Source: Halosegnis longus (lineage in GTDB: Archaea > Halobacteriota > Halobacteria > Halobacteriales > Haloarculaceae). From it: 64,000 bases of DNA. A program made the position numbers and the translations under genes. The notes below the pieces were generated by a model, which was not told the DNA's origin, searched no databases, and saw only the letters and a list, made by a program, of their open reading frames with translations. The DNA is taken from NCBI RefSeq assembly GCF_009663395.1, contig NZ_QKNW01000001.1, forward strand, positions 868,001 to 932,000, read 5' to 3'. Shown here one piece after another: positions 21,597 through 59,806 of the stretch (position 1 is its first letter; each line of letters opens with the position of its first letter).

Positions 21597-21768
21597 TGAC
21601 ACCGTTCTCGCTGTTTGGCACAGGGGAGGACACGGTGCTGTTTGCTCGGCTTTCGACAGCAACAGCACCACTCTCGTTGCTTGGCCCCCGAGGAAACCGC
21701 ACTGGTAGATTTAGCTTCAACAACACCGCAACCACTCTCGTTGCTTGGCTTCGGGGAAGCAGCACCGC
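21597..21768 (+). repeat. Tandem degenerate repeat, about 65-bp units
   Basis: ACCGTTCTCGCTGTTTGGC (21601), ACCACTCTCGTTGCTTGGC (21667) and ACCACTCTCGTTGCTTGGC (21731) begin units spaced 66 and 64 bp. The second and third share the full 19 bases. Each is followed by a G-rich stretch and a CACCGCA-like or CACGGTG-like segment. Confidence 0.55.
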
Positions 21769-22066
21769 ACCAACCTTTCCCCACACCGCACACGCGCCAG
21801 AGGCGCGGTGCGGTAGGCCACCGCCTTGGTTGCCCAATCAAGCGATGCGGTGCGTTGGCGTGAGCCGGCGCGCCTCGTGCGTGCCCGTCGTCGCGAGGGA
21901 CGAGCGAACGCAGTGAGCGAGTCGGCTGGGGAGGCTCGTGGGCGGTGCGGTCGGTGGGACTGAAAGGGGCGGGCGTGTCGCGCGTGTTCGGTCGGCTCCG
22001 TGACCCCTCTCGACGCGAACGCAGTGAGCGGAGAGATGTCACGGGGAGACCGCGACACGCCCGGGG
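21761..22066 (+). repeat. Structured dispersed element, copy 1
   Basis: About 306 bp matching 59389-59731 in order: a hairpin ACCGCA/TGCGGT with inner stem GCGCC/GGCGC (21785-21814), the GGTAGGCCACCGC box, GGTTGCC, the GCGAGGGA and GAGCGA blocks, CGGCTGGGGAGGCTCGTGGG, GGACTGAAA, and a 12-bp closing stem GGGCGTGTCGCG (21971-21982) with CGCGACACGCCC (22051-22062). Inner stems differ between copies but are kept as pairs. It may be a non-coding RNA or a small mobile element. No T-run terminator is seen beyond CTTT. Confidence 0.6.
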
Positions 22067-22132
22067 CTTTCCGGCTGGTCACAACAAGAAAACCAAATTC
22101 AACGATAGACACCTCAAAACATCAGAACCAAT

Positions 22133-27482: not shown

Positions 27483-28318
27483 CGGTGCTCGTGACGGGCG
27501 CGACCGGAACCGTTGGGTCGGCCGTCGTCACGGAGCTCGTCCCGACCGAGTTGCCGGTCCGGGCAGGCGTTCGAGACCCGACGGCGACCGGCCTCAGCGT
27601 CGAGACCGTCGCCTTCGACTACACGAAGCCGGAGACGTGGGGGGATGCACTCGACGGCGTCGAGGCCGTCTTCCTCATGTTTCCGCCGGGCGTCGCGCCG
27701 AGTCGCGTCACCGACTTCGCCGACGCGGCGGTCCGGACTGGCGTCGAGCGACTCGTCTTCCTCTCCGTGCTCGGCGCCGGCAAGCTCCCCGTACTCCCAC
27801 ACCGGCGAATCGAGCGCCACCTCGAACGACTCGACACCGAGACCGCCGCGCTCCGGGCGGCGTACTTCATGCAGAACCTCAGCGGTATCCACAGCCCCGA
27901 GATACGCGAGAAGAGCGAGCTGTTCGTCCCGGCGGGCGAGGGGCGACTCGGATTCGTCGACGCGCGCGACGTGGGGGCAGTCGCGGCTCGACTCCTCAGC
28001 GGTGAACGCTGACTCGACGGGCCGGCGGTGACGCTCACCGGACCGACGGCGCTCAGTTTCGCGGAGGCGGCGACGGTGTTCAGTGCGGAACTCGACCGCG
28101 AAATAACGTATCCGGATCCATCGCGTCGCGCCTTTGTCCGCCGAATGCGCGACCGCGGGCTATCCTCAGGATTCATCCTGTTCATGCTCGCGGAGTATCA
28201 GGCCACTCGGTTCGGGCTGACCGCACGGACAACGGACACAGTTGCGGCCCTGCTCGACCGTGAGCCACGAACGCTGGCGCAGTTCGTCGCGGAGTACCGC
28301 GAGCAGTTCCGCCCGTAG
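27479..28318 (+). pseudogene. Second NmrA-like gene, interrupted by an in-frame stop
   Basis: The frame is VTGATGTVGSAVV-type Rossmann start at residue 5, then YFMQNLSGI near residue 130, typical of NmrA/TMR-type oxidoreductases, up to LLSGER and TGA at 28010-28012. The same frame then continues with LDGPAVTLTGPTALSFAEAA and the normal C-terminal helices to residue 279, ending at 28318. The break is a single codon, TGA where CGA (Arg) would fit. The start is a GTG at 27479. It is either a recent nonsense mutation, a sequencing error, or two expressed pieces. Confidence 0.7.
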
Positions 28319-28510
28319 CTTGGAAGTTGAGACTACAGTGGGTTTAGCGAGGCTGTGATGCGTGAATTTGACCGATGCGATCGTAGAAACTACCTCAGAT
28401 CACTCTCCAAGCGGCCATTCTTGTCACACTTCCGATCGTATGGGTGGATATTCGAGACTTCCAATAGTGTAGCCACTCAGACGGCGCGCTAACCCAGACA
28501 GAGTGCCTAT
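28319..28510. other. Gap between the broken NmrA gene and the transposase
   Basis: No gene is seen. Composition drops to A+T-richer sequence here. The left member of a 12-bp inverted repeat pair, GAAGTTGAGACT (28323-28334), is at the start of the gap. No clear terminal inverted repeat of the IS could be paired with the other side of the transposase gene. Confidence 0.5.
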
Positions 28511-30187
28511 CTACCCGATTCCAGTCTCCTTCTTCAGCAGCGTCAGCGTATTGTCGGCCGTCACGATCGGCGAATGTTCATATTCACCGGTCAACTCAAC
28601 CTGCACCAACAAATCGACTGCTCGCCAAATCGAGTACAGCAGACACGCAAACGCGAAATAAAAGAATCGAAGGCCGAAATTCTTCGACGTCGTGGCGGCC
28701 ATGAATCGCTTTATCGATCTGTAGCCACTCTCGATTTCCCACCTGTAGCCGTACTCGGTGAGGTGGCCACTGGCCCCATTCGTCATGAACACCGAATATT
28801 GCCGGTGATCCTCGTGCTCAGAGTCTTTTTTCCGGCGGTAGATCAGCGTCGTCTCGTGCCACTCGTTCTTCCCAAGATGGAGTTTGCGGTCGGTCTCGTA
28901 CCGGTCTTGATCGCGCTGGAGCAATCGTTTTGCCTGGGCTTTCTCGCTAGTCTGCATCCGCTTCGGCACGACGTAGGAGAGCCCACGTCGGCTGACCATC
29001 TCCAGAACGTGTTGACTATCGAACTCCCGGTCCATCAGGACGTTATCGACGTGAACGAGCTCTTCAGCCGAATCCAGCAAGTCCTCGACGATCTCCTTTC
29101 GTGACTCACCTTTCCGTACCGGGCGGGCATCAAGGACGAGTGGGACAGCGTTGCCGACTAGCTGGACCGTTGCCCACTGGTAGGCGTACTCGTCGCTCTT
29201 CTCCTTCGTTCCGATTATCTCGTCCTCGCGGCCGGTGCGGTCACCGGTAAAGGGGTCGTCCTCGGTGATGTCGATCGCGACGATTCCGGCTCGAAAGAAC
29301 TGCTCTGTCTCCGAAACTTCGTTTAGGAGCCGAGTGATGGCCTGCTGGTACATCGCTCGCACCTGTTCAATCGAGAAATCGCGAATCTGCTCACGATGGG
29401 CGTGACCCAACGGTGTCCGCTCTCGAGTTGACTCGTAGGTGAAGCTACGAGCGCCCTCGTTAGCAGCCAGCCGCTCGCGAAGCCCCAGATACGTCTGTAA
29501 GCCCCAGTAGGCGTTCTCGTGGATCTCGCAGCCGTCCCCACGATCCAGCGAAAATGCCGGGAAGACGACGCGGCTGACGTGGTCGGTAATCTTCTCTGCC
29601 TGCTCCAACGTAGTCTGATCGTCCGGGTCTGACTCACCAGACTCGCTCCCGGGGTATCGGAGCGTTCGTGCCGGTTCACGCGGAGTCTCGACACCCGCAT
29701 TCTGGGCTTTGACGAGGATCGTTCGAGCCGCCGTCATGACTGTCTCCTTGAGGTCAGCGGTAAACCGCTCGTGCCAGCTTCGCCACAGTGTCGACTGGTC
29801 CGGGATCGTCCCGAAACCCAGTTGCTCGCAGAGGTCAGGACGATTCCCGAGATAGTCGACGAGTGCTGTTTCGTGCTCCCACCCGTGGAGTTCTTTCAGT
29901 ACGAACACCCGGAAGAGAGTGGCCATTTGGTAGCCTGTCGGCCCCGCATATCGGTCGTGGGCGCTGAACCGGAAGTAGGCTACCGGGAGAACACAGACGA
30001 ACTCCTCGATGGATTCGTGGCTCTCGTGATCGAACCACGTCTCTGAGACTGTCCGGATATCAGATTCCAGTCCAGCGAGAGACGTTCGATCGTACAGTGG
30101 TGTCGAATTGTACGCCGGCCACTCACTATATTGTCGTTGGGCGATCCGTCGAAACACAGTCCGACAGGACTGACTGGTGTAGGGCAT
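28511..30187 (-). CDS. IS4-superfamily DDE transposase (558 aa)
   Basis: 558 residues. The DDE catalytic triad is visible: first Asp in GIVAIDITEDDPF, second in DNVLMDREFDSQH, and third Glu in YGYRWEIESGYRSIK, which fits the IS4-family Y-(2)-R-(3)-E-(6)-K signature. N-terminal 170 residues are an extra domain of unknown role with a Cys-free start. No frameshift is seen, so the element may be active. I could not match terminal inverted repeats. The gene starts at the ATG complementary to 30185-30187 and is followed upstream by a G-rich run (30240-30260). Confidence 0.9.
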   Translation of the reverse strand: MPYTSQSCRTVFRRIAQRQYSEWPAYNSTPLYDRTSLAGLESDIRTVSETWFDHESHESIEEFVCVLPVAYFRFSAHDRYAGPTGYQMATLFRVFVLKELHGWEHETALVDYLGNRPDLCEQLGFGTIPDQSTLWRSWHERFTADLKETVMTAARTILVKAQNAGVETPREPARTLRYPGSESGESDPDDQTTLEQAEKITDHVSRVVFPAFSLDRGDGCEIHENAYWGLQTYLGLRERLAANEGARSFTYESTRERTPLGHAHREQIRDFSIEQVRAMYQQAITRLLNEVSETEQFFRAGIVAIDITEDDPFTGDRTGREDEIIGTKEKSDEYAYQWATVQLVGNAVPLVLDARPVRKGESRKEIVEDLLDSAEELVHVDNVLMDREFDSQHVLEMVSRRGLSYVVPKRMQTSEKAQAKRLLQRDQDRYETDRKLHLGKNEWHETTLIYRRKKDSEHEDHRQYSVFMTNGASGHLTEYGYRWEIESGYRSIKRFMAATTSKNFGLRFFYFAFACLLYSIWRAVDLLVQVELTGEYEHSPIVTADNTLTLLKKETGIG

Positions 30188-30189
30188 CA

Positions 30190-30645
30190 GTCTATAGAAA
30201 GTAGAACGAACTCAAAACGCGTGTTACATTTAATTAAACGGGGGTGGGGGGTGGGGTGGGTGTGCCTCTGACGCTTCGCTGGATACCAGTTTGAGAGGTA
30301 TCCGGTTCGATTATTATTGAGGAAGAATATAATTCTGAACCCAATAGATATACCTGATCAATATTGTCAACGTCTAAGTATTGGCCTTACTATCTATAAT
30401 CCGGCTTTGAGGGGTGAACGGGGCTATGTATATTGTAACTCGTGGATTGTCTCTGCTAATAGGTGCCAATACTCTATCCAGTTTTAATCCGTGAATTGCC
30501 GCAGGGTTAAGCCATCCTCCTATACCGTTTATAAATGAGGGTTTGGAGCTTCATTGCAGAAATTAAAGCAGAGAAAGCAGCATAGCAAATGATATAATTA
30601 ACACAATTGAAACATATAATAATAAACCGACAAACTCGATCAATC
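30190..30645. other. A+T-rich non-coding stretch (456 bp)
   Basis: No credible gene. It begins with a G-quadruplex-type run (GGGGG-T-GGGGGG-T-GGGG-T-GGG, 30240-30260), then contains much A/T (TTATTATTGAGG). A TATA-like TTTATAAAT (about 30528-30536) could start a short transcript. The rest shows nothing recognisable. Confidence 0.6.
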
Positions 30646-31029
30646 TCATATCCAAATGAGTACCATATTATGAAGCGACACAGCGCTCCATACGATCAAA
30701 ACTGAAAGGTATGCTACATTGCTCCACAGATCGATATTATGTCTCGATTGTGCGACCCAGGGAAGCAGGAATTCACCAAGAAAGAATAATAACACTAGTG
30801 ACACCGACGAGAGAAAGAATAGGCCGGGGATGATTCCGAGAGTCTCAATAATAAGTACGACAATCGGATTGGCTTCTCGCAGTCCGATGCTCAGCCCATA
30901 GTACGTGAGACTCGCATCTATAGCTCGTACGAAGACCAATCCGATGAGCAGCGGATATTTACTTTCTGCGAGTACTTCGATACTGCTGCTGGTAGCACAA
31001 TTAGTGGATGCCACGGCTCCTCGCACCAT
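30646..31029 (-). CDS. Small membrane protein, DUF5658-like
   Basis: 127 residues with four hydrophobic stretches. The segment YYGLSIGLREANPIVVLII is the D/TYYGL...EANPI pattern seen in DUF5658 proteins of haloarchaea. It is the last gene of the minus-strand signalling block and begins one base after the HalX regulator stop (31031), so it is almost certainly cotranscribed. Function unknown. It could be a membrane partner or output of the signalling genes, or a passenger. Confidence 0.75.
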   Translation of the reverse strand: MVRGAVASTNCATSSSIEVLAESKYPLLIGLVFVRAIDASLTYYGLSIGLREANPIVVLIIETLGIIPGLFFLSSVSLVLLFFLGEFLLPWVAQSRHNIDLWSNVAYLSVLIVWSAVSLHNMVLIWI

Positions 31030-31030
31030 A

Positions 31031-31624
31031 TCAGAATTGCTCTACAGGTTGGGATCCGATACGCTGGTCTCTGACCAGCATATCGATCTGATAATCTGTT
31101 TCGAGACGCTGAAGTGTCGTATCAGCTTCCTCCTCCAACTCCCGTATTCTCTGGAGGAGATCGCCGTATCGATCGTCCTGTTCCAGCTCTGTTTTGTCAA
31201 GGTTCGCTTCTAACGTGGCTTTCCTCGCGGTGAGTGAGAGAAGCTCTGTGAGTGAATCTTCGTATGTTAGAATCAGCTCTGCAGCTTCCACAGCTCGAAG
31301 AAGCTTTGTCCGGTCGATTGGTTTGAGAAGATAGTCATCCACATCGATGGACGCTAGGTCTTCCGTTGGCTGAACAGCTGTTACCATAATCACCTGCTGG
31401 GCATCGCCGCCTTCACGAATTGATTGTAGCACTTCCGTGCCAGAGAGGCCCGGCATTCGACGATCTAAAACGACAATATCAATCGGTTCCTCAGCGAAGA
31501 TTTCCAGTGCATCTTCCCCGGAATAGGCTACATGAACCTCGAACTGCTCCTGTAGCCAAATGCCGAACAAGTCAGCGAGATTCTCTTCGTCTTCGACGAT
31601 CAGAACGGTACTGGAATGGGTCAT
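31031..31624 (-). CDS. Response regulator with HalX domain
   Basis: 197 residues. The receiver domain (residues 1-120) shows the acidic pocket (VEDEENL), phospho-Asp at about 54 (IVVLDRRMPGLSG) and the Lys (LLKPIDRTKLLRAVE). The C-terminal HalX module (residues 125-185, coiled-coil-like helices) follows. HalX proteins are haloarchaeal response regulators without a classic DNA-binding domain. The gene starts 10 bp after the HalOD1 gene and ends 1 bp before the membrane protein gene. Confidence 0.9.
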   Translation of the reverse strand: MTHSSTVLIVEDEENLADLFGIWLQEQFEVHVAYSGEDALEIFAEEPIDIVVLDRRMPGLSGTEVLQSIREGGDAQQVIMVTAVQPTEDLASIDVDDYLLKPIDRTKLLRAVEAAELILTYEDSLTELLSLTARKATLEANLDKTELEQDDRYGDLLQRIRELEEEADTTLQRLETDYQIDMLVRDQRIGSQPVEQF

Positions 31625-31634
31625 CTATTATCAC

Positions 31635-31958
31635 TCACGCATCTCGTTCGACGATGACACGCACCGTTGATGCGTACATGACCGTCACAAGTGCGTCCTG
31701 AAAGAGAAACTCCACAGAGGGCATATGACTGGTCTCCTCGACTGTACGAGTTTTGAACAAGCCATCTAATTTGTCTGCATCAACAAATTCGGACACCGGA
31801 GGTGATCTACTGAGTTCCGGCCAGTCTTCGACAGCTTCCATAAGTGTCTCAATGACCGCATCCGAAACACGGACAGGTCTGTCAAATTCACGCACTATTT
31901 GGGAATCTGTACTCCATCCCGTAGGTTCTGACTCTCGGTGCGGAGCGCTTTCGGCCAT
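31635..31958 (-). CDS. HalOD1 output-domain protein
   Basis: 107 residues. The pattern RPVRVSDAVIETLMEAVEDWPELSRSPPVSEFVDADKLDGLF followed by PSVEFLFQDALVTVMYASTVRVIV is that of the HalOD1 domain, a presumed haloarchaeal signalling output of unknown action. No catalytic residues are known. It lies between the Bat-like regulator (158-bp gap) and the HalX regulator (10-bp gap), so it may start a sub-operon. Confidence 0.85.
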   Translation of the reverse strand: MAESAPHRESEPTGWSTDSQIVREFDRPVRVSDAVIETLMEAVEDWPELSRSPPVSEFVDADKLDGLFKTRTVEETSHMPSVEFLFQDALVTVMYASTVRVIVERDA

Positions 31959-32117
31959 ACAGGATATGTCTTATTCTATGATGAAACCTCTTCTACCCTC
32001 TAATATCGGGGTGCCAGATTTAATGCCTATATGGAAAGGCCGACTATTTGGAGCCAGTTTTCCGAATGTCGACAAGCAGGACAGCCCGAGTACTGTAGAA
32101 CGTGATACTGAGGCAGG

Positions 32118-34826
32118 TCACGGCTCGGTTGAATCCTGATAGAGAGTTGTCAGCAGATTAGACTCCGCAGCTCGAAGATGCTGGTTGAACGTTGACTGTG
32201 CGATATCGAGAGTCTTGGCAATCGATGTCGAATCTGCATCCCGCGGCCAATTAAAATATCCTGCGTAGAGCGCCGTCTGTAAGACTTCTTCTTGCCGGGC
32301 GGTAAGAGCTCCATCAAGACGTGCTGAGAGAGAGGTATTAGTTTCTCCTCGCTCACTATCCAGTTTGGATAACAGGGTGAGATCGCTGTAGTCTTCCCGG
32401 AGTGAACTCAGATATTCCCCGACGTCAACGGTGAATGGCACGGTTACTGAAACCACGATCTCGTTGGACTCGGAAGCGTTTGTGATTTGATTTATCGCAA
32501 CTCCTTGGTCGGTCAGTTTCTCGCAAAAGCTGCTGTTCCGCACCGGGACTTTACAGTAGATACCATTTCGAGAGTCGCTCAAAATGACCGTCTCTGGATC
32601 GAAACCAGCGGCTTCGAACGCCTCGGGGGTCACGTTTTCACCGGTCACTCGCGCGAACAGGAGGTGATCTGGACACTCAGTCACTACATTCAACACTTCG
32701 AAATCCGTCTCCATATCCGAAACAAGAGTTGCAAGGCCAGTATCGTCCTCGAACTGAATTTCGAGAATTGTGCCCCCACCGGATAGAAGCGCCGCCTTTT
32801 GCCGGAGTGCTGATATCCCGTGACCTATTATTTGACCGAGCTCTGTGAGGGCTGTCACCTCTTCTTCAGCGAAGGCGTTTGGCAGTTTGGAGTGGACTTC
32901 TAATACGCCAAGGATCGAAGCCTCGCTCTGTAGTGGTACAGCCACAATCGAGTTGGTGCCATTTTTCAGTGCGTCTTGTTCCCACTCCGTTTCGGAGCGA
33001 GCGGTCATTAAGTCGCTCTCCACCACTGAATCTTCAATCCTGTATGCCCGTTCAGCAGGTGGCAATTTAGAGTTACTCCGTTGGGTATTGTCATCTGCTG
33101 AACCGTCGTCCGCTCCCACGTTTTGATATTGGAGCGACTCCGTTTTGGCTCTGACCTCGATCGTATTCGTATTAATATCTTTTTTGCCGATCCAGGCCCC
33201 ACTAACCAGATCCAGGTGAGCTAGAGCATTACAGACCTCTTGCTCCAGTTCTTCTCGTGTATTTGTACTGATAACCGTGGCACTTATCGACCGTATCAGT
33301 GTGTTAATGCGATCCAGTCGTGTCAGCTGTTCGTTTTGCTCGTTTAACCGCTGGTCGCGTTCCCGAAGGGCCGCTTCTTGTGCTGTTCGTTCGAATGCGC
33401 TTGCTGCGTTCGCTGCTAACGTCTTTGCCAATTTGTTCTTTCTTGAGGAAATCTCTGGCGTCGTGGTCATCCCCAGCAAAAGAACCCCCTCTGCTTCTAG
33501 TGAGTAGAGTCGCCACGACGAGAACTCCTCTGTCAACCACTGGCTTGACTGGGAATCTGCAACGTTTTCCTCGTCGGGGGCCAACTGTTCCGTTCGAGTC
33601 ACATAGGTCGTCCAGACTGGTGTGTCTCCTTCGGAGATGGTGGGAAGGTCGATTTCAGTAACATCTTCGGTAGATGCGTGCGCTAGTGGGACCAAGCGCC
33701 CCGTGTGCTCTTCTCGTGTATATATCGCGGCAAACTCGAATCCGAGTTCACTGACTGCGGCAGTCGCCACGGTTTCGCCGATGCTACGTTCCGAGTCGGC
33801 TGTCATTAGATCGCGAGAAACCGCATGCAGATCCTCAAGCTGTTGTTCATACGCGTACCTCTCTGTAATATTGTGGTAGTGTTCAATCCGCCCGCCTGCA
33901 TAAAGACCAGTTTTGATCGGCCCGCTCCAGTACTCCAACCACTGCTGCTCTTTCGAAGCCGTCTCAGGGATTCGGACGATGGCTTCGACTTCGGAATGCA
34001 TATTCTCTAGAGAATGAGTTACGAGGTCAGACAGTGTTTGCTCACCTGAGGGATATTCGTTGTACGATTCAGAAGCAATGCGACTGTAGTCAGACCCTTG
34101 GATATCGTCTCTATCAACGCCGAGTAATTCTTCCGTAGTTTCGTTTGCCCACACCACCTGTCCGTCGCGATTAACTACAACGATCCCTTCCTCTGATGTG
34201 TCCAGGACGTCTTCAGTGAGGGACTGGTACTGCTGTTGTTCCCTGCGCTCTGCTGCTGTTCGTTGCAGGCGCTCAATAGCCACTCGAAAATCCCTGTCTG
34301 GCAGGTTCTGGAGATACCGTTCGACCTTATCCTCGAGTTCTGTGAGTTGGTCCGTGAGTGCCTGGTATTTCGGGCTCGTTTCGAGGGTATCTGTGTCCAT
34401 GACGGCTTCCAAGGTCGATTGGCGTTCTATCAGCGAGAACAGCTCTTGCAGATCTTCGTTGTACTCGGCACGAGTGAGCATCTGGGAGATAACGTCTTCG
34501 AGGTCGTCAGCTTCAACGGGCTTTTCGAGATACGCATCGAATCCCATTTTGACGATATCGAAGTCCGGTGTCACCGCAGAGACGATAACCACCTGGCAGT
34601 TCGACTCATATTGTCTGAGTCGCGTGAGAACCTCTCCGCCGGATAACCCGGGCATCATCCGATCCAGAAGAACGATATCGACAGTCGCATCGAACGCTTC
34701 CAAGGCTTCTTCGCCAGAGTACACAGTTTCGACAACATAGCGGTCTGCGAGCCACTCTGCATACAGCTCAGCCAAACTCTGGTCATCCTCGACGACCAGG
34801 ATTTTTGTGTTTCCGTTTTGGGTCAT
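32118..34826 (-). CDS. REC-HalX-PAS-GAF-GAF-Bat-HTH regulator
   Basis: 902 residues, all domains in one chain. Receiver: residues 1-120, phospho-Asp 55 in IVLLDRMMPGLSG, Lys 102. HalX-like helices: about 120-190. PAS: 200-325. GAF: 340-475. Second GAF: 505-680. Bacterio-opsin-activator (Bat) module: about 685-830. HTH_10: 838-892 (LTARQEEVLQTALYAGYFNWP, then SIAKTLDIAQSTFNQHLRAAE). Classic Bat proteins carry PAS-GAF-Bat-HTH_10 and activate bop. Here a receiver plus HalX is added in front, so the protein can be phosphorylated directly. It lies 3 bp after the kinase gene and is surely its partner by position. Confidence 0.92.
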   Translation of the reverse strand: MTQNGNTKILVVEDDQSLAELYAEWLADRYVVETVYSGEEALEAFDATVDIVLLDRMMPGLSGGEVLTRLRQYESNCQVVIVSAVTPDFDIVKMGFDAYLEKPVEADDLEDVISQMLTRAEYNEDLQELFSLIERQSTLEAVMDTDTLETSPKYQALTDQLTELEDKVERYLQNLPDRDFRVAIERLQRTAAERREQQQYQSLTEDVLDTSEEGIVVVNRDGQVVWANETTEELLGVDRDDIQGSDYSRIASESYNEYPSGEQTLSDLVTHSLENMHSEVEAIVRIPETASKEQQWLEYWSGPIKTGLYAGGRIEHYHNITERYAYEQQLEDLHAVSRDLMTADSERSIGETVATAAVSELGFEFAAIYTREEHTGRLVPLAHASTEDVTEIDLPTISEGDTPVWTTYVTRTEQLAPDEENVADSQSSQWLTEEFSSWRLYSLEAEGVLLLGMTTTPEISSRKNKLAKTLAANAASAFERTAQEAALRERDQRLNEQNEQLTRLDRINTLIRSISATVISTNTREELEQEVCNALAHLDLVSGAWIGKKDINTNTIEVRAKTESLQYQNVGADDGSADDNTQRSNSKLPPAERAYRIEDSVVESDLMTARSETEWEQDALKNGTNSIVAVPLQSEASILGVLEVHSKLPNAFAEEEVTALTELGQIIGHGISALRQKAALLSGGGTILEIQFEDDTGLATLVSDMETDFEVLNVVTECPDHLLFARVTGENVTPEAFEAAGFDPETVILSDSRNGIYCKVPVRNSSFCEKLTDQGVAINQITNASESNEIVVSVTVPFTVDVGEYLSSLREDYSDLTLLSKLDSERGETNTSLSARLDGALTARQEEVLQTALYAGYFNWPRDADSTSIAKTLDIAQSTFNQHLRAAESNLLTTLYQDSTEP

Positions 34827-34829
34827 AGT

Positions 34830-37800
34830 TTACGACACGATACCCGGTTTTTGTGAGTCCTCTTGAGCCGGTTGGGTGGGGACTTCCAGTGTGATCTCAC
34901 TTCCATCGCCCGAGGTGTCGACTGAAATCGATCCCCCAGCACGAGTCACCAGTGCCCGCACCATCCACAATCCGAGTCCCTGCCCGTGACTTAGCGGCGT
35001 TTCTTCCCCAGTTTCGAGGAGATTTTTCTCCATATCTGGGAGTCCAGGCCCAGTATCGGAGACACAAATCTCTACCCACCGTTCATCGGCTTGCGAGACA
35101 CTGATCTGTACGGATGGATGCTCAGTATCGTTCGCTGTGATGGCGTTCTCAACGAGCTCAGAAATCGCCTTCTCAAGGTCACTCGGTATTTGTGATTCTA
35201 TATTGTGGTCGGCTGTGATAGTGATATTCGCATTAGCATGCTCGTCTTCTTTTTTGGCTTGAATATCCTCAGCTATTTGCTGAGCACTCTGGTGGGAAGC
35301 GAGAGCGCTCTCGCTCGTGAGTATATTCTGGAGCTCTTGGGTCTTGTTTGCCATTCTTTCCCACTTGTCGAGAGTGTCTCGGATCGTCGCAGCGTGCTGT
35401 TCACGAGTGTCTGTCTCTGTGTCCGACGCAAGCAGATCGACATACCCTCCCAGTTTCGTCAGATCATTTCGGATATTGTGCCGCATAATCCGGTGTAAGA
35501 CCTGGACGTGTTGCCGACGCTGCTCCTGAGCTGTAATATCTCGTGCCTCGAATACTAGGAAGCTAAGCTCCCCGTGCTGGCTTGAGATCGGCTTGACCGA
35601 GAAGTCGAAGCTGGCGAGTCCACCAACGCCTTCTCCTTCCACGTTGAACCGAACGAATGAACCCGAAGATGCTTGAGTAACTGCCTGTCTGATTTGAGTT
35701 TGTACTTCAGACGAATGCGCGAACAGAGGGCACTCCCAGAGTGGTGTGCCTCTGCTTTCCTCCACACGTATGCCGCCGAACTCCATGAAGGGGTCGTTTA
35801 GCTCGAGGATTTCACCACTCTGGGTCATCAGGCCCGTCAATTGGAACGTTTGATTGAATACGGATTCGAATTTTTTCGTTTGTTCTCTTATATTACTGAT
35901 GTCACGCATATATAACAGAAACCCGCCAATTGCTTCATCGTCAAAGAGATTCCGTCCACGTGCCTCTACGGTAACCCACTCGTCATCCGCATCCATTGCT
36001 TGGAACTCTAGCTGAACGCTTGCATCGGAATCCTCCAGGGCGGGGAAAAACGCTTCCATTACACGTTCCCTATCCTCAGGATGGATAATATCAAAGACGC
36101 TCTCTTGATTTAGCTGAGTTGGACCATATCCAAGTACCCGTTCAGCAGAGCCACTAAGATAGGTGAAACACCCGTCGCGATCTAAGATAGACACGACGTC
36201 GACTGATTCCTCAACGAACCGCTCTGTTCTACGCCGCTGTTGACGCTGGTTCGTAAGATCTCTGATGACTATCCCGTATCCCAGGAACACTCCATCTTCA
36301 GTTTGAAGAGGGACGTATGAGACCTCTGCAGGGAACGAAGATCCATCCTGACGGACTCGCTGTCCTTCGTGAGTACTTTCTCCTGCGAGTGATGCCTGTT
36401 TTAATAACCGATCAGCAATCCCACGTTTTTGATCCTGTTCAGGGTGTAACTCTGCTGCTGGCATACCAATTGCAGCTTCTTCGTCATATCCAAAGATGTC
36501 GGCTGCACCATCGTTCCAGCTGTCGATCTGTCCATCGTCATCGAGAAGGACAAAGGCGTATTCTTCGAGACTTTCCGAGAGGATCTCGAATCGCTTCCGC
36601 TCCTGTTGAATCTGCCGAATCCGTCGTTTTTGATCCGTTATGTCCGTGGCAATCGCGACAAGCCTCTCTCCAGTTTCGTCATCGGGTATCAGAACAGCAT
36701 CTGTGTGTATCCATCGCGTTTGTTCGTTGGCATCAGTAACTCTAAAATCCTCAGACAAGTCGTTGATCTCGCCGACTCGTTCTAGTGAATCACGAACACG
36801 ATCTCTATCTTCCGGCGCGACAATCTGTACGAACTCTTCATACTTGTCCGGATCATGGCCAAGTAAATCGACAAGCGTGTCGTCGAATGATATCTGATCC
36901 GTCTCAAGACTCCACTCTGCAATACCAGTGTCCGTTCCAGAAAGAACCAATTCGAGTTTCCGGTTCTGTTCTGCCAGGCTCCGAGTCCGTTGCCTCCGAC
37001 CTGTTACGTCCTGCTGTATGCCAATAAACTTCGAAAGCGTACCATCTACATCAGTGACTGGCGTGACAGACAATCGATTCCAGTATTCACTCCCGTCTTT
37101 TCGGTAGTTTTTCAATTCTACTGTTACCGGTTCACCGGCCGCAATCGCCTCTCGAAGCTTCGATAGTTCTTCAGGGTCTGTCTCGGGTCCCTGGAGGAAA
37201 CGTGGATTACGGCCTAAGGCGTCGTCCTCTTCGTAGCCAGTAATGTCGGTGAATCCTTTATTTACGTACTCGATCGGGTTGTCCTCTCGCTGTGGGTCGG
37301 TGATCATGACCCCAACATTCGAGGAGTCAATCGCTTGTTCCTTGAGTTCGAGTTCGCGCTTCCGTTCTCGTTGTGCAGTCTGATCGCGCACAGTACAAAC
37401 GAGGGGGCCATCATCGATGATGGTCAGAGAGAGATCAGCCGGGAATGTGGTCCCATCCGGTCGGGATCCGGTTACCTTACCCCGCCAGTGGCCCTCCGAC
37501 TCAAGAACAGGGAAGGCTTCCGACTCAAGACGCTCTACCTCATCTTCGTCATAGAGCATCCGCCATGAGTTGCCGAGGAGTTGGTCAGTATCATCGAATC
37601 CATACATACCCACGTGTGTCTCGTCGATGTAGGTGTATTCTCCATCCTCGAGAATAGCGAAGCCGTCTTTCGCATCCTCGACAGCCTGCTGGAACGTCTC
37701 TAATTCGCGACGGCGCTGCTCACGGGGTGTGATATCCCGACTGGAAATAACGAGCGATTCGACGCCTGATTCCCCTATAACGGGACGGATGGTCCCGGTA

Positions 37801-39302
37801 AAGAACTGAATCTCTCCCTCCGGTGTTGGGTATTTGGATTGGAAACTGACGTACTCACCTGACGCCGCTCGATCGATCCAGTCTTTTAGATCGTCCTGTA
37901 GAGTCTGAGAGTGTGACCACCACTCTCCCTCCCAAATCGGTTCCCCCAAAAGCTCATCTTTAGCGTGCGAAACGTATTCCAGAGCTGTTTCATTCACATC
38001 GATCACTTCACCAGTGGTTTCCAGTAATCCGACCAGCATCTCAGGATCTTCGAACACCGACTCGAAACGCTGCTCATTCTCCCGAAGTTCCGCTTGACGC
38101 CGATATTTTTCAGACACGTCACGGACAACACAGACGATTCGATCGTCTTCCAAGCGTGTCAGCGATAGTTCGGTCGGGAATTCTTCCTTGCCTTCTGGAG
38201 ATGCAGTTACAGTGCCTCTCCACTCTCCATCAGATCGGAGCGCTGAAAGCGCCTCATCCTCTATGCGCTTGATTTCAACGGCATCAGTATACAAATCACG
38301 CCAAGTCTGCCCCAGTAACTCATCTTGGTCCTCGAACCCGTACATTTCGGCATGCGTTTGATCAACGTACGTGTACTCCTCGTTCTCCAGAATAGCAATC
38401 CCATCACTCGCGTTCTCGATAGCCGACTTAAACGACTCTAGGCGACGCCGGCGTTCCCGCTGTTCCGTCACATCTCTCGCAACGGTATGCATATAGGCCG
38501 CCCCATCGCGCTCGATCCGACGGTTCGAGAACTCGACATCAACTTTACTATTGTCGCTCCGAAGTAGTTTCGCTTCAGTGGTTGCTGGTTCGCCGGCTAA
38601 AATTTGGTCGTGGTAATCCTGATAGGCATGTAAGTCGACCTCTTCGTGAAGATCGGGAATACGCATCGAGAGGAGTTCCGCTCGCTCATAGCCAGTTAAC
38701 TGGCAAGCAGCCTGATTCACTTGGACGAAGTTCGCATCTGAATCACTAATGAAAATGGCATCGTTGGAGCCTTCAAACAACGTGTGTGTCCAATCACGCT
38801 CGGCCTGTAGCTCCTCGACGTATCGGATTCGTGAAATTGCGTCTTCGAGATTCGAGGCGACGAGTTTCGCCAGTTCTGCGTCTTTCTGAGTAAAGGCATC
38901 CACTTCAGTAGCTCCGACACTCAAGACGCCGAAGTCCGAGATTGGCACGAGAATTTCGCTCCGAATCGGGGTGTCTGAATTATACGTGCCGTCGGCCTCG
39001 TGGACATCGTCGAACACTTCCGGACGGTTCTGTCTGTACACACGTCCGGCGAGAGAATCAACTGGAAGGATAGGTGCATCGCCAATCACCTCTTGTGCCT
39101 CGGTTGATTCGGCGATTGGGCGGAGTTCGTTTCCCTCTTCATTGTACTCCCAGATCGCCGAAAGAGGCGCATCAAAATTGAGATCCAACATTCGGACAGC
39201 AACGACAGAGACGTCCTCGATAGAACCAGCTTGATTCAGTTCCGAAGACAACTCGAGAAGTCCTGCGGGGGTATGGTCCGTGTACGCGTCTCCATCGCTC
39301 AT
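34830..39302 (-). CDS. Giant soluble histidine kinase: GAF, nine PAS domains, HisKA-like, HATPase
   Basis: 1490 residues without membrane segments. GAF about 10-160; PAS domains about 170-283, 290-400, 410-530, 538-648, 655-770, 780-893, 902-1020, 1026-1140 and 1145-1260. Phospho-His 1275 in HRIMRHNIRNDL. N-box ELVENAITAND, G1 DTGPGLP, G2 GQGLGLWMV. PAS 5 carries GRNPRFLQGPETD, that is a LOV-type motif in which the flavin-binding Cys is Pro. PAS 2 and 4, and PAS 3 and 9, look like internal duplicates. It is the first gene of the signalling operon, 130 bp from a divergent HTH gene. Light, redox or oxygen sensing are possible but not shown. Confidence 0.93.
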   Translation of the reverse strand: MSDGDAYTDHTPAGLLELSSELNQAGSIEDVSVVAVRMLDLNFDAPLSAIWEYNEEGNELRPIAESTEAQEVIGDAPILPVDSLAGRVYRQNRPEVFDDVHEADGTYNSDTPIRSEILVPISDFGVLSVGATEVDAFTQKDAELAKLVASNLEDAISRIRYVEELQAERDWTHTLFEGSNDAIFISDSDANFVQVNQAACQLTGYERAELLSMRIPDLHEEVDLHAYQDYHDQILAGEPATTEAKLLRSDNSKVDVEFSNRRIERDGAAYMHTVARDVTEQRERRRRLESFKSAIENASDGIAILENEEYTYVDQTHAEMYGFEDQDELLGQTWRDLYTDAVEIKRIEDEALSALRSDGEWRGTVTASPEGKEEFPTELSLTRLEDDRIVCVVRDVSEKYRRQAELRENEQRFESVFEDPEMLVGLLETTGEVIDVNETALEYVSHAKDELLGEPIWEGEWWSHSQTLQDDLKDWIDRAASGEYVSFQSKYPTPEGEIQFFTGTIRPVIGESGVESLVISSRDITPREQRRRELETFQQAVEDAKDGFAILEDGEYTYIDETHVGMYGFDDTDQLLGNSWRMLYDEDEVERLESEAFPVLESEGHWRGKVTGSRPDGTTFPADLSLTIIDDGPLVCTVRDQTAQRERKRELELKEQAIDSSNVGVMITDPQREDNPIEYVNKGFTDITGYEEDDALGRNPRFLQGPETDPEELSKLREAIAAGEPVTVELKNYRKDGSEYWNRLSVTPVTDVDGTLSKFIGIQQDVTGRRQRTRSLAEQNRKLELVLSGTDTGIAEWSLETDQISFDDTLVDLLGHDPDKYEEFVQIVAPEDRDRVRDSLERVGEINDLSEDFRVTDANEQTRWIHTDAVLIPDDETGERLVAIATDITDQKRRIRQIQQERKRFEILSESLEEYAFVLLDDDGQIDSWNDGAADIFGYDEEAAIGMPAAELHPEQDQKRGIADRLLKQASLAGESTHEGQRVRQDGSSFPAEVSYVPLQTEDGVFLGYGIVIRDLTNQRQQRRRTERFVEESVDVVSILDRDGCFTYLSGSAERVLGYGPTQLNQESVFDIIHPEDRERVMEAFFPALEDSDASVQLEFQAMDADDEWVTVEARGRNLFDDEAIGGFLLYMRDISNIREQTKKFESVFNQTFQLTGLMTQSGEILELNDPFMEFGGIRVEESRGTPLWECPLFAHSSEVQTQIRQAVTQASSGSFVRFNVEGEGVGGLASFDFSVKPISSQHGELSFLVFEARDITAQEQRRQHVQVLHRIMRHNIRNDLTKLGGYVDLLASDTETDTREQHAATIRDTLDKWERMANKTQELQNILTSESALASHQSAQQIAEDIQAKKEDEHANANITITADHNIESQIPSDLEKAISELVENAITANDTEHPSVQISVSQADERWVEICVSDTGPGLPDMEKNLLETGEETPLSHGQGLGLWMVRALVTRAGGSISVDTSGDGSEITLEVPTQPAQEDSQKPGIVS

Positions 39303-39432
39303 ACATCCGATGTTGTTGTTCCGCTGTATTATGTTTTCGCTTGGAGAACCATTTCATATCGGCCCCAATAGAATTGGTTCGATAAATATAGGGTACAGCT
39401 ATTCAGCCTTGAGAATCAATCGTGGTAACAAG

Positions 39433-40134
39433 ATGTCGACGGAAGCAGTTGCGGTACTCGGGCGGAAATACAGCGTAGATATACTGCGGGCGGCAAGGGA
39501 ACCGCGATCAGTCAGCTGGCTGAGTCAAGAGCTAGATATTCCGATTGCCACTTGTTACAGACGTGTGAAGGAACTCTCTGAGAATATGTATTTAGAAGAG
39601 GTCACTGCGGACGAGAGCAGGGACAGAACACAGTACTGTCGAACGGCGGATAGTATTGAACTCAACCTTGCATCTGACGTATTGCTTAGCGGCTCTCGAT
39701 CTTGGGAAACTCGAGAAGTACCAAGGGATACAATACCGTTAGATTCCGTTACGCTTGATGAGTTCTCCCAGACGATTGATATTGTCGAAGACTACTTCGG
39801 GAGTTTGATCGACGATGTTGCTGTTCATGCATCCATTTCACGCCGGCAACTTGTGGCGGTGCTGGCACGCGCCCAGCTCTCGGGTCACCAACTCGACACC
39901 GAGGGACTGACCGATAACGGCGACATCGTCCACCAGTCGAACGATGAGACACTCTTTTGGCTTGACGGTGATTTCTGGACGGAGCTGGGCGGGCTCCACT
40001 ACTTGAGCCCAGACGAGGGACGAGCTGCCAGAGAAGTTCATCGCCGACTCATCGAGGCGGTCGCCGGAGACGTCGCCGACTACAACCGCGAGCGCGATCC
40101 GTTTATTCTCATCACGCAAACTCCTGGGTGTTGA
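39433..40134 (+). CDS. Winged-helix regulator divergent from the giant kinase
   Basis: 233 residues from ATG 39433; a long upstream extension is possible but poor. Residues 1-75 are a winged helix (LGRKYSVDILRAAREPRSVS-WLSQELDIPIATCYRRVKEL) of the ArsR/PadR-like kind. The middle is linker. Residues 125-233 (SRRQLVAVLARAQLSGHQL... DGDFWTELGGLHYLSPDEGR) are unknown. The 5' two-thirds have the A+T-rich style of the island, while the 3' third from about 39835 is G+C-rich. A TATA-like GATAAATATA lies near 39382. It shares a 130-bp divergent region with the kinase operon and may control it. Confidence 0.75.
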   Translation: MSTEAVAVLGRKYSVDILRAAREPRSVSWLSQELDIPIATCYRRVKELSENMYLEEVTADESRDRTQYCRTADSIELNLASDVLLSGSRSWETREVPRDTIPLDSVTLDEFSQTIDIVEDYFGSLIDDVAVHASISRRQLVAVLARAQLSGHQLDTEGLTDNGDIVHQSNDETLFWLDGDFWTELGGLHYLSPDEGRAAREVHRRLIEAVAGDVADYNRERDPFILITQTPGC

Positions 40135-40571
40135 TATCGTTTTATTTGCTCCGTTCAATATCCAGGTCTATTGTGAGCTTCGGCCGCTACCGACCGTAGT
40201 ATGTCGGACAGAAGAAGTCCTCGGTCGGGTATCATCGTTCTCGCTTCTTGACGGGTTGATTGGCGTTACTTGGGGAAGCGTCGGACTCACTGTTTGAAAA
40301 AAGCCCCTCCGTGCGGCTTGACCAAATTCGAGTCGTGTCTGTCGAGAACTGAATCCATTCGGTGGCTGGCAGTCTCGACGACGCGACAATGGGCGAAATC
40401 GACGACGCGCTCAAGTTAAGTCACGGGTTCGGCTGATCGAGAGACCCTGTACAAAGAAATCAGTGTCAGATCCGTATGCATTGAGACGACCAGTCTCAAC
40501 TTCAGGAATAGTCGGTTGTGACCAGAGACGCAGAATCGGCAACGAAAAGCTTCGAGCGCTACGCTACGGAG
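40135..40571. other. Island edge: 437 bp without an intact gene
   Basis: It contains the toxin-like remnant (40260-40436), a hairpin TTGAGAC-GACCA-GTCTCAA (40481-40499) and the right member of the 12-bp inverted repeat (40492-40503). The remaining sequence shows no coding signal. Confidence 0.6.
40260..40436 (+). pseudogene. Likely C-terminal remnant of a MazF/PemK-type toxin
   Basis: The plus-strand frame reads SVRLDQIRVVSVEN, a TGA stop at 40350-40352, then IHSVAGSLDDATMGEIDDAL and KLSHGFG up to TGA at 40434-40436. The pattern RLDQIRVV...GSLDDATMGEIDDAL resembles the end of PemK/MazF toxins (RLDQLRAVD..., ...LxDxTMxxVDxAL). Only about 50 residues remain, with a stop inside, so it would be inactive. 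The N-terminal toxin core and any antitoxin are not found. Confidence 0.4.
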
Positions 40572-59202: not shown

Positions 59203-59806
59203 CGAACAGCCGGCTGGGTACGCGCGACGCTACGCCGGGCTCCCGTCTCGGGCGTCGCGGGCGACTCGTTACATGGGGTCGCTGGCCTCGGCTTCTGATT
59301 TGAACCTTCGTGCAGTTGTTGTGTCTTCAGCGTCAGAGCCGTCAACTGAAGCCGACGCGATGTTGACACGCCTCTATTTGATGTTGCCAGCACCGCGACC
59401 GCTCGCTAGCCCGCGGCCTCCGGCCGCTCTCCCAACCCTCCCCCGGACCGCACACGCTCGCACGGCGAGCGGTGCGGTAGGCCACCGCAACGGTTGCCTG
59501 TGCGGTTGGCGTGGTCCGAGCGCGCCCTGTGCGCGAGAGTCAGCGCGAGGGATGAGCGACCGCAGGGAGCGAATCGGCTGGGGAGGCTCGTGGGCTGTGC
59601 CATCGGGTAGGACTGAAACGGGCGGGCGTGTCGCGCTTGCGTGGTTGACTCCGTGACCACTACCGGGAGAGCGACGCGCTCCCAGGCAGCCGGCGGTGGA
59701 ACCGCCGGCACGCCCGCGACACGCCCGGGGTTTTCGATCCCGAAATGACAGAGCAGTCAGAGCAATCAGAGCCAGCAAACGAGACACCACACTCACATAA
59801 ACAGAC
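59203..59806. other. Gene-free stretch of 604 bp after cobT
   Basis: Contains the second copy of the structured element (59389-59731) and about 185 bp before it with no clear signal. Convergent ends of cobT and the UPF0104 gene border it. Frames here are Arg-rich chance products. Confidence 0.6.
59389..59731 (+). repeat. Structured dispersed element, copy 2
   Basis: 343 bp, collinear with 21761-22066: hairpin ACCGCA/TGCGGT with inner stem CGCTCG/CGAGCG (59447-59478), GGTAGGCCACCGC, GGTTGCC, GAGCGA block, CGGCTGGGGAGGCTCGTGGG, GGACTGAAA, and closing stem GGGCGTGTCGCG (59624-59635) with CGCGACACGCCC (59715-59726). Inner hairpins are GGGAG/CTCCC and GCCGGCGGT/ACCGCCGGC. Confidence 0.6.

Follow-up and report, generated by a model that had tools for sequence, protein, structure and literature searches.

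The window analysed here, a stretch of 64,000 nucleotides from Halosegnis longus, contains two hairpin-rich intergenic sequences whose letters differ while their pairing is kept, which raises the question of what they are and of what holds their shape. The initial annotation had described two collinear copies 37.6 kb apart and had proposed that they are a non-coding RNA or a small mobile element. Alignment of the two window copies bears out the collinearity, and both copies are real, yet many more exist in the genome. The observation holds, and in fact goes less far than the evidence does: the window copies are members of a large, apparently undescribed family of folded repeats, intergenic and haloarchaea-wide.

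The anatomy was read from an alignment of 14 copies with their flanks. A repeated leader is followed by CCAACC, hairpin 1, hairpin 2, hairpin B, the words TCGGYTGGGGAGG and ACTGAAAGGGGC, a 13-bp stem round hairpin C and a tail, CGCGACACGCCCGGGGCTTTC. With this leader the element reaches upstream to about 21715, beyond the start first given for it (21761). In window coordinates, the features are as follows:

21661..21769, forward strand: leader of two diverged units, (C)GACAGCACCGCGACCACTCTCGTTGCTTGGC..GGGGAAACAGCACCGC, which precedes most copies (14-copy alignment with flanks)
21770..22080, forward strand: copy 1, full structured element (5' domain, core and 3' domain)
21785..21815, forward strand: hairpin 1 of copy 1, with a constant frame ACCGCAC/GTGCGGT and a swapped apex (here CGCGCC AGA GGCGCG)
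21857..21895, forward strand: hairpin 2, found in two co-varying forms, GCCGGCGCGC.. or TCCGAGCGCGC..
21898..21924, forward strand: hairpin B, alternating 2-bp blocks and tandem G.A steps (GGAC GA GC GA AC GCA GT GA GC GA GTC)
21922..21934, forward strand: core word TCGGYTGGGGAGG, conserved across haloarchaea
21959..21970, forward strand: second conserved word, ACTGAAAGGGGC
21970..22063, forward strand: 3' domain, closing stem CGGGCGTGTCGCG/CGCGACACGCCCG round hairpin C (21998-22044)
22051..22086, forward strand: tail word CGCGACACGCCCGGGGCTTTC..GGTC, which repeats downstream in several copies
59399..59745, forward strand: copy 2, element with variant modules
59447..59479, forward strand: hairpin 1 of copy 2, apex CGCTCG CACGG CGAGCG
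59550..59586, forward strand: hairpin B of copy 2 (GGAT GA GC GA CC GCA GG GA GC GA ATC) and core word
59623..59727, forward strand: 3' domain of copy 2, closing stem retained

Hairpin 1 had been said to carry a swapped inner stem in a constant frame, and indeed CGCGCC/GGCGCG of copy 1 is replaced by CGCTCG/CGAGCG in copy 2 within ACCGCAC...GTGCGGT; in some copies the frame itself takes a compensated form, GACGCAC/GTGCGTC. The closing stem CGGGCGTGTCGCG/CGCGACACGCCCG, described earlier as identical in both copies, is so over 13 bp (21970-21982 with 22051-22063; 59623-59635 with 59715-59727). Copy 2 lacks the 3' arm of hairpin C and has a double-palindrome module instead (GGGAGAGCGACGCGCTCCC, GCCGGCGGTGGAACCGCCGGC, 59665-59709), and the optional inserts seen in the copies are pairs of small palindromes. 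The GAAAGG of ACTGAAAGGGGC is predicted to pair with a CCTTTC of the 5' end, which would close the 5' domain. At Natrialbaceae loci such as L176, L186 and L222 the core runs on into a conserved tail, GTGTGGCnATCCCnGTTGCCACGATAGCAGrACGCT, which could form a pseudoknot (GGGGA/TCCCC with GTGGC/GCCAC). At the Halosimplex loci L288 and L312, the two conserved words are separated by short GC-rich repeats (GCGGTCGCTGTGCGGG and the like), in a run that varies in length.

The Halosegnis longus genome (2.77 Mb) holds about 15 strong copies together with degraded ones. A nucleotide search of the genome with the element matched 31 places, and a covariance model of the 5' half gave 22 matches, of which 15 score above 90 bits; every one of the 22 lies on the main chromosome. 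Low-complexity composition as the source of the likeness, for which the initial annotation had allowed, is excluded: E-values reach 1e-116 for other copies, and the folded strand is more stable than 100 of 100 dinucleotide shuffles (z -3.1 as RNA, -3.9 as DNA). The central block is present across haloarchaea. In eleven genomes the core word occurs about 3-62 times per genome, with zero matches for a reversed-pattern control, and a scan with the right-arm pattern placed cores, among the matches listed, in Natrinema, Natronococcus, Halococcus, Halosimplex, Halolamina, Halobium and others. The viral contigs and phages searched contained no family match and only partial matches occur on seven haloarchaeal plasmids; a virus-borne repeat was rejected on these grounds. 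A covariance-model search of Rfam found no family match at the curated score, and the literature, covered mostly as open-access text without supplementary files, held no match for the sequence words and no description of such a repeat. Together with the lack of a resident IS605-type match, this supports, as far as tested, the earlier impression of an element unlike any recognised one.

Evolution seems to preserve the fold of this family while its letters change. Selection on structure had been claimed from the two window copies; the compensatory change is strong, and its support exceeds what could be known from them. Pairing is kept through changes on both sides, across and within the genus. 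In the Halosegnis alignment, 97% of the cells of the 5' half and 99% of those of the 3' half are paired, which falls to 36-50% and 30-50% once the partner columns are slid; cells changed on both sides number 26 and 12, against shuffle means of 9.2 and 4.2. For the haloarchaea-wide core search, the pattern fixed the right arm only and the left arm was unused. Among the matches listed, the left and right dinucleotide blocks are nevertheless complementary in 52 and 53 of 62 distinct cores (shuffle means 25.6 and 16.4, maxima 37 and 27, 2000 shuffles), and the left GA spacer is retained in 61 of the 62.

These shuffle controls leave relatedness in, which a comparison of orthologous sites removes partly; since related sequences can inflate the shuffles, the comparison at fixed sites carries more weight. 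It was made with the sister genome, that of Halosegnis rubeus (G002). Hairpin B differs in sequence between the two species at ten of ten orthologous sites, where 18 pairs are changed on both sides and still paired, 3 are changed on one side and 2 are unpaired; all four GA steps are intact in 19 of these 20 hairpins. The tips have thus been exchanged or have mutated in concert within a frame that is kept. With tips exchanged, not all of the changes are independent point mutations.

Hairpin B has the general form GGAY-GA-NN-GA-XY-GNA-Y'X'-GA-N'N'-GA-RTC, in which two-base Watson-Crick blocks alternate with 5'-GA opposite 5'-GA and a GNA-type loop sits on top. In DNA and RNA alike, stable sheared pairs arise from tandem GA steps that stand in a Y-GA-R context, and GNA loops are notably stable in DNA. 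About 1 Mb of the genome contains 27 hairpins of the GA..GNA..GA design, where a third-order random sequence gave 1; designs with a different mismatch step or loop are much less common in the genomic sequence. GNA loops were not in excess among genomic hairpins in general, the excess being specific to the GA-flanked design.

As for the strand that folds, the written strand shows 28 G.T wobbles against 10 A.C mismatches, and it is therefore the one whose folding is kept; its RNA fold energy is -166.8 kcal/mol, that of the complement -147.2 kcal/mol. Tolerance of G.T is equally expected of RNA, and the strand bias does not separate RNA from DNA.

The genomic setting is independent of gene direction. 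Cores from many genera were placed relative to genes, and 62 of 64 are intergenic; the counts for the four possible orientations of the two flanking genes are 17, 16, 15 and 15, and the arrangements round the Halosegnis copies are likewise mixed. Given these random orientations, a cis-regulatory UTR element was rejected. No promoter-like AT peak was seen at a fixed distance from the copies, and an autonomous promoter was rejected for want of it. Moreover, no protein family is shared near 80 core loci, and the few clusters that do recur resemble ordinary syntenic neighbours, so that an accessory or transposase gene at the loci was also rejected. In Natronococcus sp. A-GB1 a distant TnpB gene (L216, 1234-2313) is found about 500 bp or less from a core, the sole case in the 80 loci.

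The copies are mostly inherited in place. Each of the four copies in the 808-972 kb interval is matched in H. rubeus by one at the same place and in the same orientation, nearly all strong copies, mapped singly, are orthologous there, and the blocks round orthologous sites mostly align at about 88-94% identity between the species. Two H. rubeus copies are without a counterpart, one through an internal deletion in H. longus and one at an inversion breakpoint. At the deleted site, the flanks and the GGGGAGG side are intact and only the structured block is gone. In the flanks of 13 copies, no inverted or direct repeats above chance were found, save one 13-base direct match, and the terminal inverted repeats that would mark a MITE are absent. 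As far as the sites allowed, the check for insertion polymorphism and target duplications that had been proposed gave mostly negative results, with orthologous sites, no reproducible direct repeats and no clean empty site from which to read a target. From the orthologous positions, the lack of terminal inverted or direct repeats and the one absence that is an internal deletion, it follows that current mobility is not supported. The small mobile element of the initial annotation is therefore hardly to be seen as active at present, and the dispersal of the family is obviously ancient.

Several further differences between genomes were observed. The inversion, of about 6.5 kb, sets H. longus C1 at about 1331700-1338200 against H. 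rubeus C8 at about 318500-321000, with a family copy at the H. rubeus breakpoint and none in H. longus. Orthologues of the copy at 2194k (L013 compared with L333) carry the tip of hairpin C in opposite orientations at the same place, which points to a hairpin-mediated inversion at the DNA level. In another genome (G004), the site corresponding to the window has a weak core in the opposite orientation. Between the two window copies, a lower-GC segment (about 28300-40160; C1 about 896320-908528) is missing from the otherwise collinear H. rubeus. It carries genes for a DDE transposase (28511-30187), HalX response regulators, a HalOD1 protein and a multi-PAS histidine kinase of 1490 aa, and looks like a recently gained sensor-gene island.

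The orientation of the copies follows replication in Halosegnis. The main Orc1/Cdc6 gene lies at 1.114 Mb, where the GC skew of the sampled stretches changes sign, and the strong copies switch orientation at this origin (14 of 14, two-sided p about 1e-4, one copy being omitted because the skew of its region is unclear). Adding the weak copies gives 15 of 17 (p about 0.002), both exceptions being weak ones. Cores of G004 and of Halosimplex show no replication polarity, and a general polarity across haloarchaea was looked for, not found and rejected. The pattern was noticed after the fact and rests on one genus, within which H. rubeus offers no independent test because it shares the same sites; replication polarity is a lead, not a result.

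The element is, then, a chain of hairpins on the written strand, with compensated pairing and with tips exchanged at fixed sites, mostly inherited in place and indifferent to gene direction. It is dispersed, intergenic, hairpin-forming and multi-copy and has no gene of its own, as ERIC/BOX-like repeats are, a likeness of kind and not of homology. We infer that the folded form is more likely single-stranded DNA than autonomous RNA, because of the random gene orientation, the lack of a promoter peak, the replication polarity in Halosegnis, the one inverted tip and the hairpin-type deletions. Our best explanation, held tentatively and at a little under even chances, is that of an old non-coding intergenic repeat of ERIC/BOX-like kind, kept as a folded single strand, most likely of DNA, and read by a putative hairpin-binding host factor. 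The hairpins would be exposed as single-stranded DNA during replication or recombination, and the folded strand might be read there by that putative factor. Tips may be replaced by gene conversion or template switching between copies, with the frame kept, and the single orientation to the fork in Halosegnis would fit either a DNA-level role or past insertion into fork DNA. A broader form of the proposal, in which a haloarchaea-wide hairpin system of folded single strands (fork DNA or RNA) with a selected GA-mismatch design is recognised by a host factor and is fork-oriented in at least one genus, is possible but rather doubtful.

The main rival is an RNA reading, in which transcripts of the written strand fold and are functional in that form, either as a multi-copy structured non-coding RNA or as an RNA processing element in read-through transcripts. 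In its favour, the written strand has the best fold and accepts G.U in place of pairs more readily than A.C, and there are several hairpin domains, whose joining words TCGGYTGGGGAGG and ACTGAAAGGGGC are near-invariant across families; intergenic sRNAs are, moreover, common in Haloferax (PMC5852579). Copies of a functional RNA gene would be unusual in numbering 15 to 60 and being near-redundant, however, and these lack an AT-rich peak at a set distance that would mark a promoter, stand at random to neighbouring genes (divergent and convergent gaps included) and match no Rfam family. Covariation of paired positions, expected of a structured non-coding RNA, was found, and a folded DNA strand predicts the same. 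The absent promoter peak and the random orientation speak against the non-coding RNA first proposed, which we consider an unlikely but serious account.

Less probable again is descent from an IS200/IS605-type element: the family would be a relic of a palindrome-associated transposable element (PATE) that a TnpA transposase moved as single-stranded DNA. The family copies likewise have neither terminal inverted repeats nor direct repeats, small double palindromes occur among them as optional inserts, and their orientation is biased in Halosegnis; a PATE relic would explain the palindromes, the lack of inverted terminal repeats and the bias to one replication strand. Nevertheless, a Y1 TnpA gene is absent from the genome (no PF01797 match), the ends of the three resident TnpB genes show no meaningful match to 14 copies, and a single distant TnpB lies near the 80 core loci. 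In addition, positions are conserved between species and polarity is absent in other genera. With the resident TnpB ends and the TnpA search both negative, an IS605/PATE origin was rejected and we regard it as improbable. Least probable of all is an old repeat of no present function, its arms kept matching by template switching or gene conversion alone, which would suit the tips swapped as cassettes at orthologous sites, the tip inverted in place and the internal deletions, but not joining words that are near-invariant across many genera, nor GA/GA mismatches kept at fixed spacing (61/62; 19/20), since template switching should perfect the arms.

To our knowledge, structured repeats scattered through the genome have received much study in bacteria and hardly any in archaea. 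Here, a single fold can be traced haloarchaea-wide by compensatory change, at fixed sites, in tens of copies and with an unusual hairpin design. The family offers a way to look for the protein or process by which it is read and to ask whether it acts as DNA or RNA, and its covariance model offers annotators a label for a presently unlabelled share of haloarchaeal intergenic sequence. Like the ERIC, BOX and MITE-like repeats of bacteria (PMC10969869), it is dispersed between genes in tens of copies, hairpin-forming, modular, family-wide and of unclear function; in contrast to them, it is archaeal, has no terminal inverted repeats or target duplications that we found, uses a 2-bp/tandem-GA hairpin and has no known parent transposon. 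Streptomyces telomeres (PMC7205883) share with it chains of DNA hairpins, GNA loop caps and sheared purine pairs, whereas the family lies at internal archaeal chromosomal loci and not at linear ends, with its tandem GA within the stem. The rolling-circle origin hairpins of Rep-Arvir viruses and plasmids (PMC13107129) are also haloarchaeal, stand beside variable inverted repeats and keep structure more than sequence, but our family has tens of chromosomal copies, no recurring neighbour gene and no viral or phage match. PATEs are abundant in Haloquadratum, have neither inverted repeats nor target duplications and serve as insertion sites for small palindromic repeats (PMC3119063). Those of Haloquadratum walsbyi are like our family in being haloarchaeal elements of hundreds of bases with palindromes, palindromic-repeat invasion and no inverted terminal repeats. 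Unlike PATEs, the copies are positionally conserved, and the family spans many haloarchaeal genera with a conserved core word and without a detected relation to IS605 ends or TnpA. Among haloarchaeal elements it is thus PATEs that the family most resembles, although it lacks the two PATE features tested, IS605 ends and TnpA.
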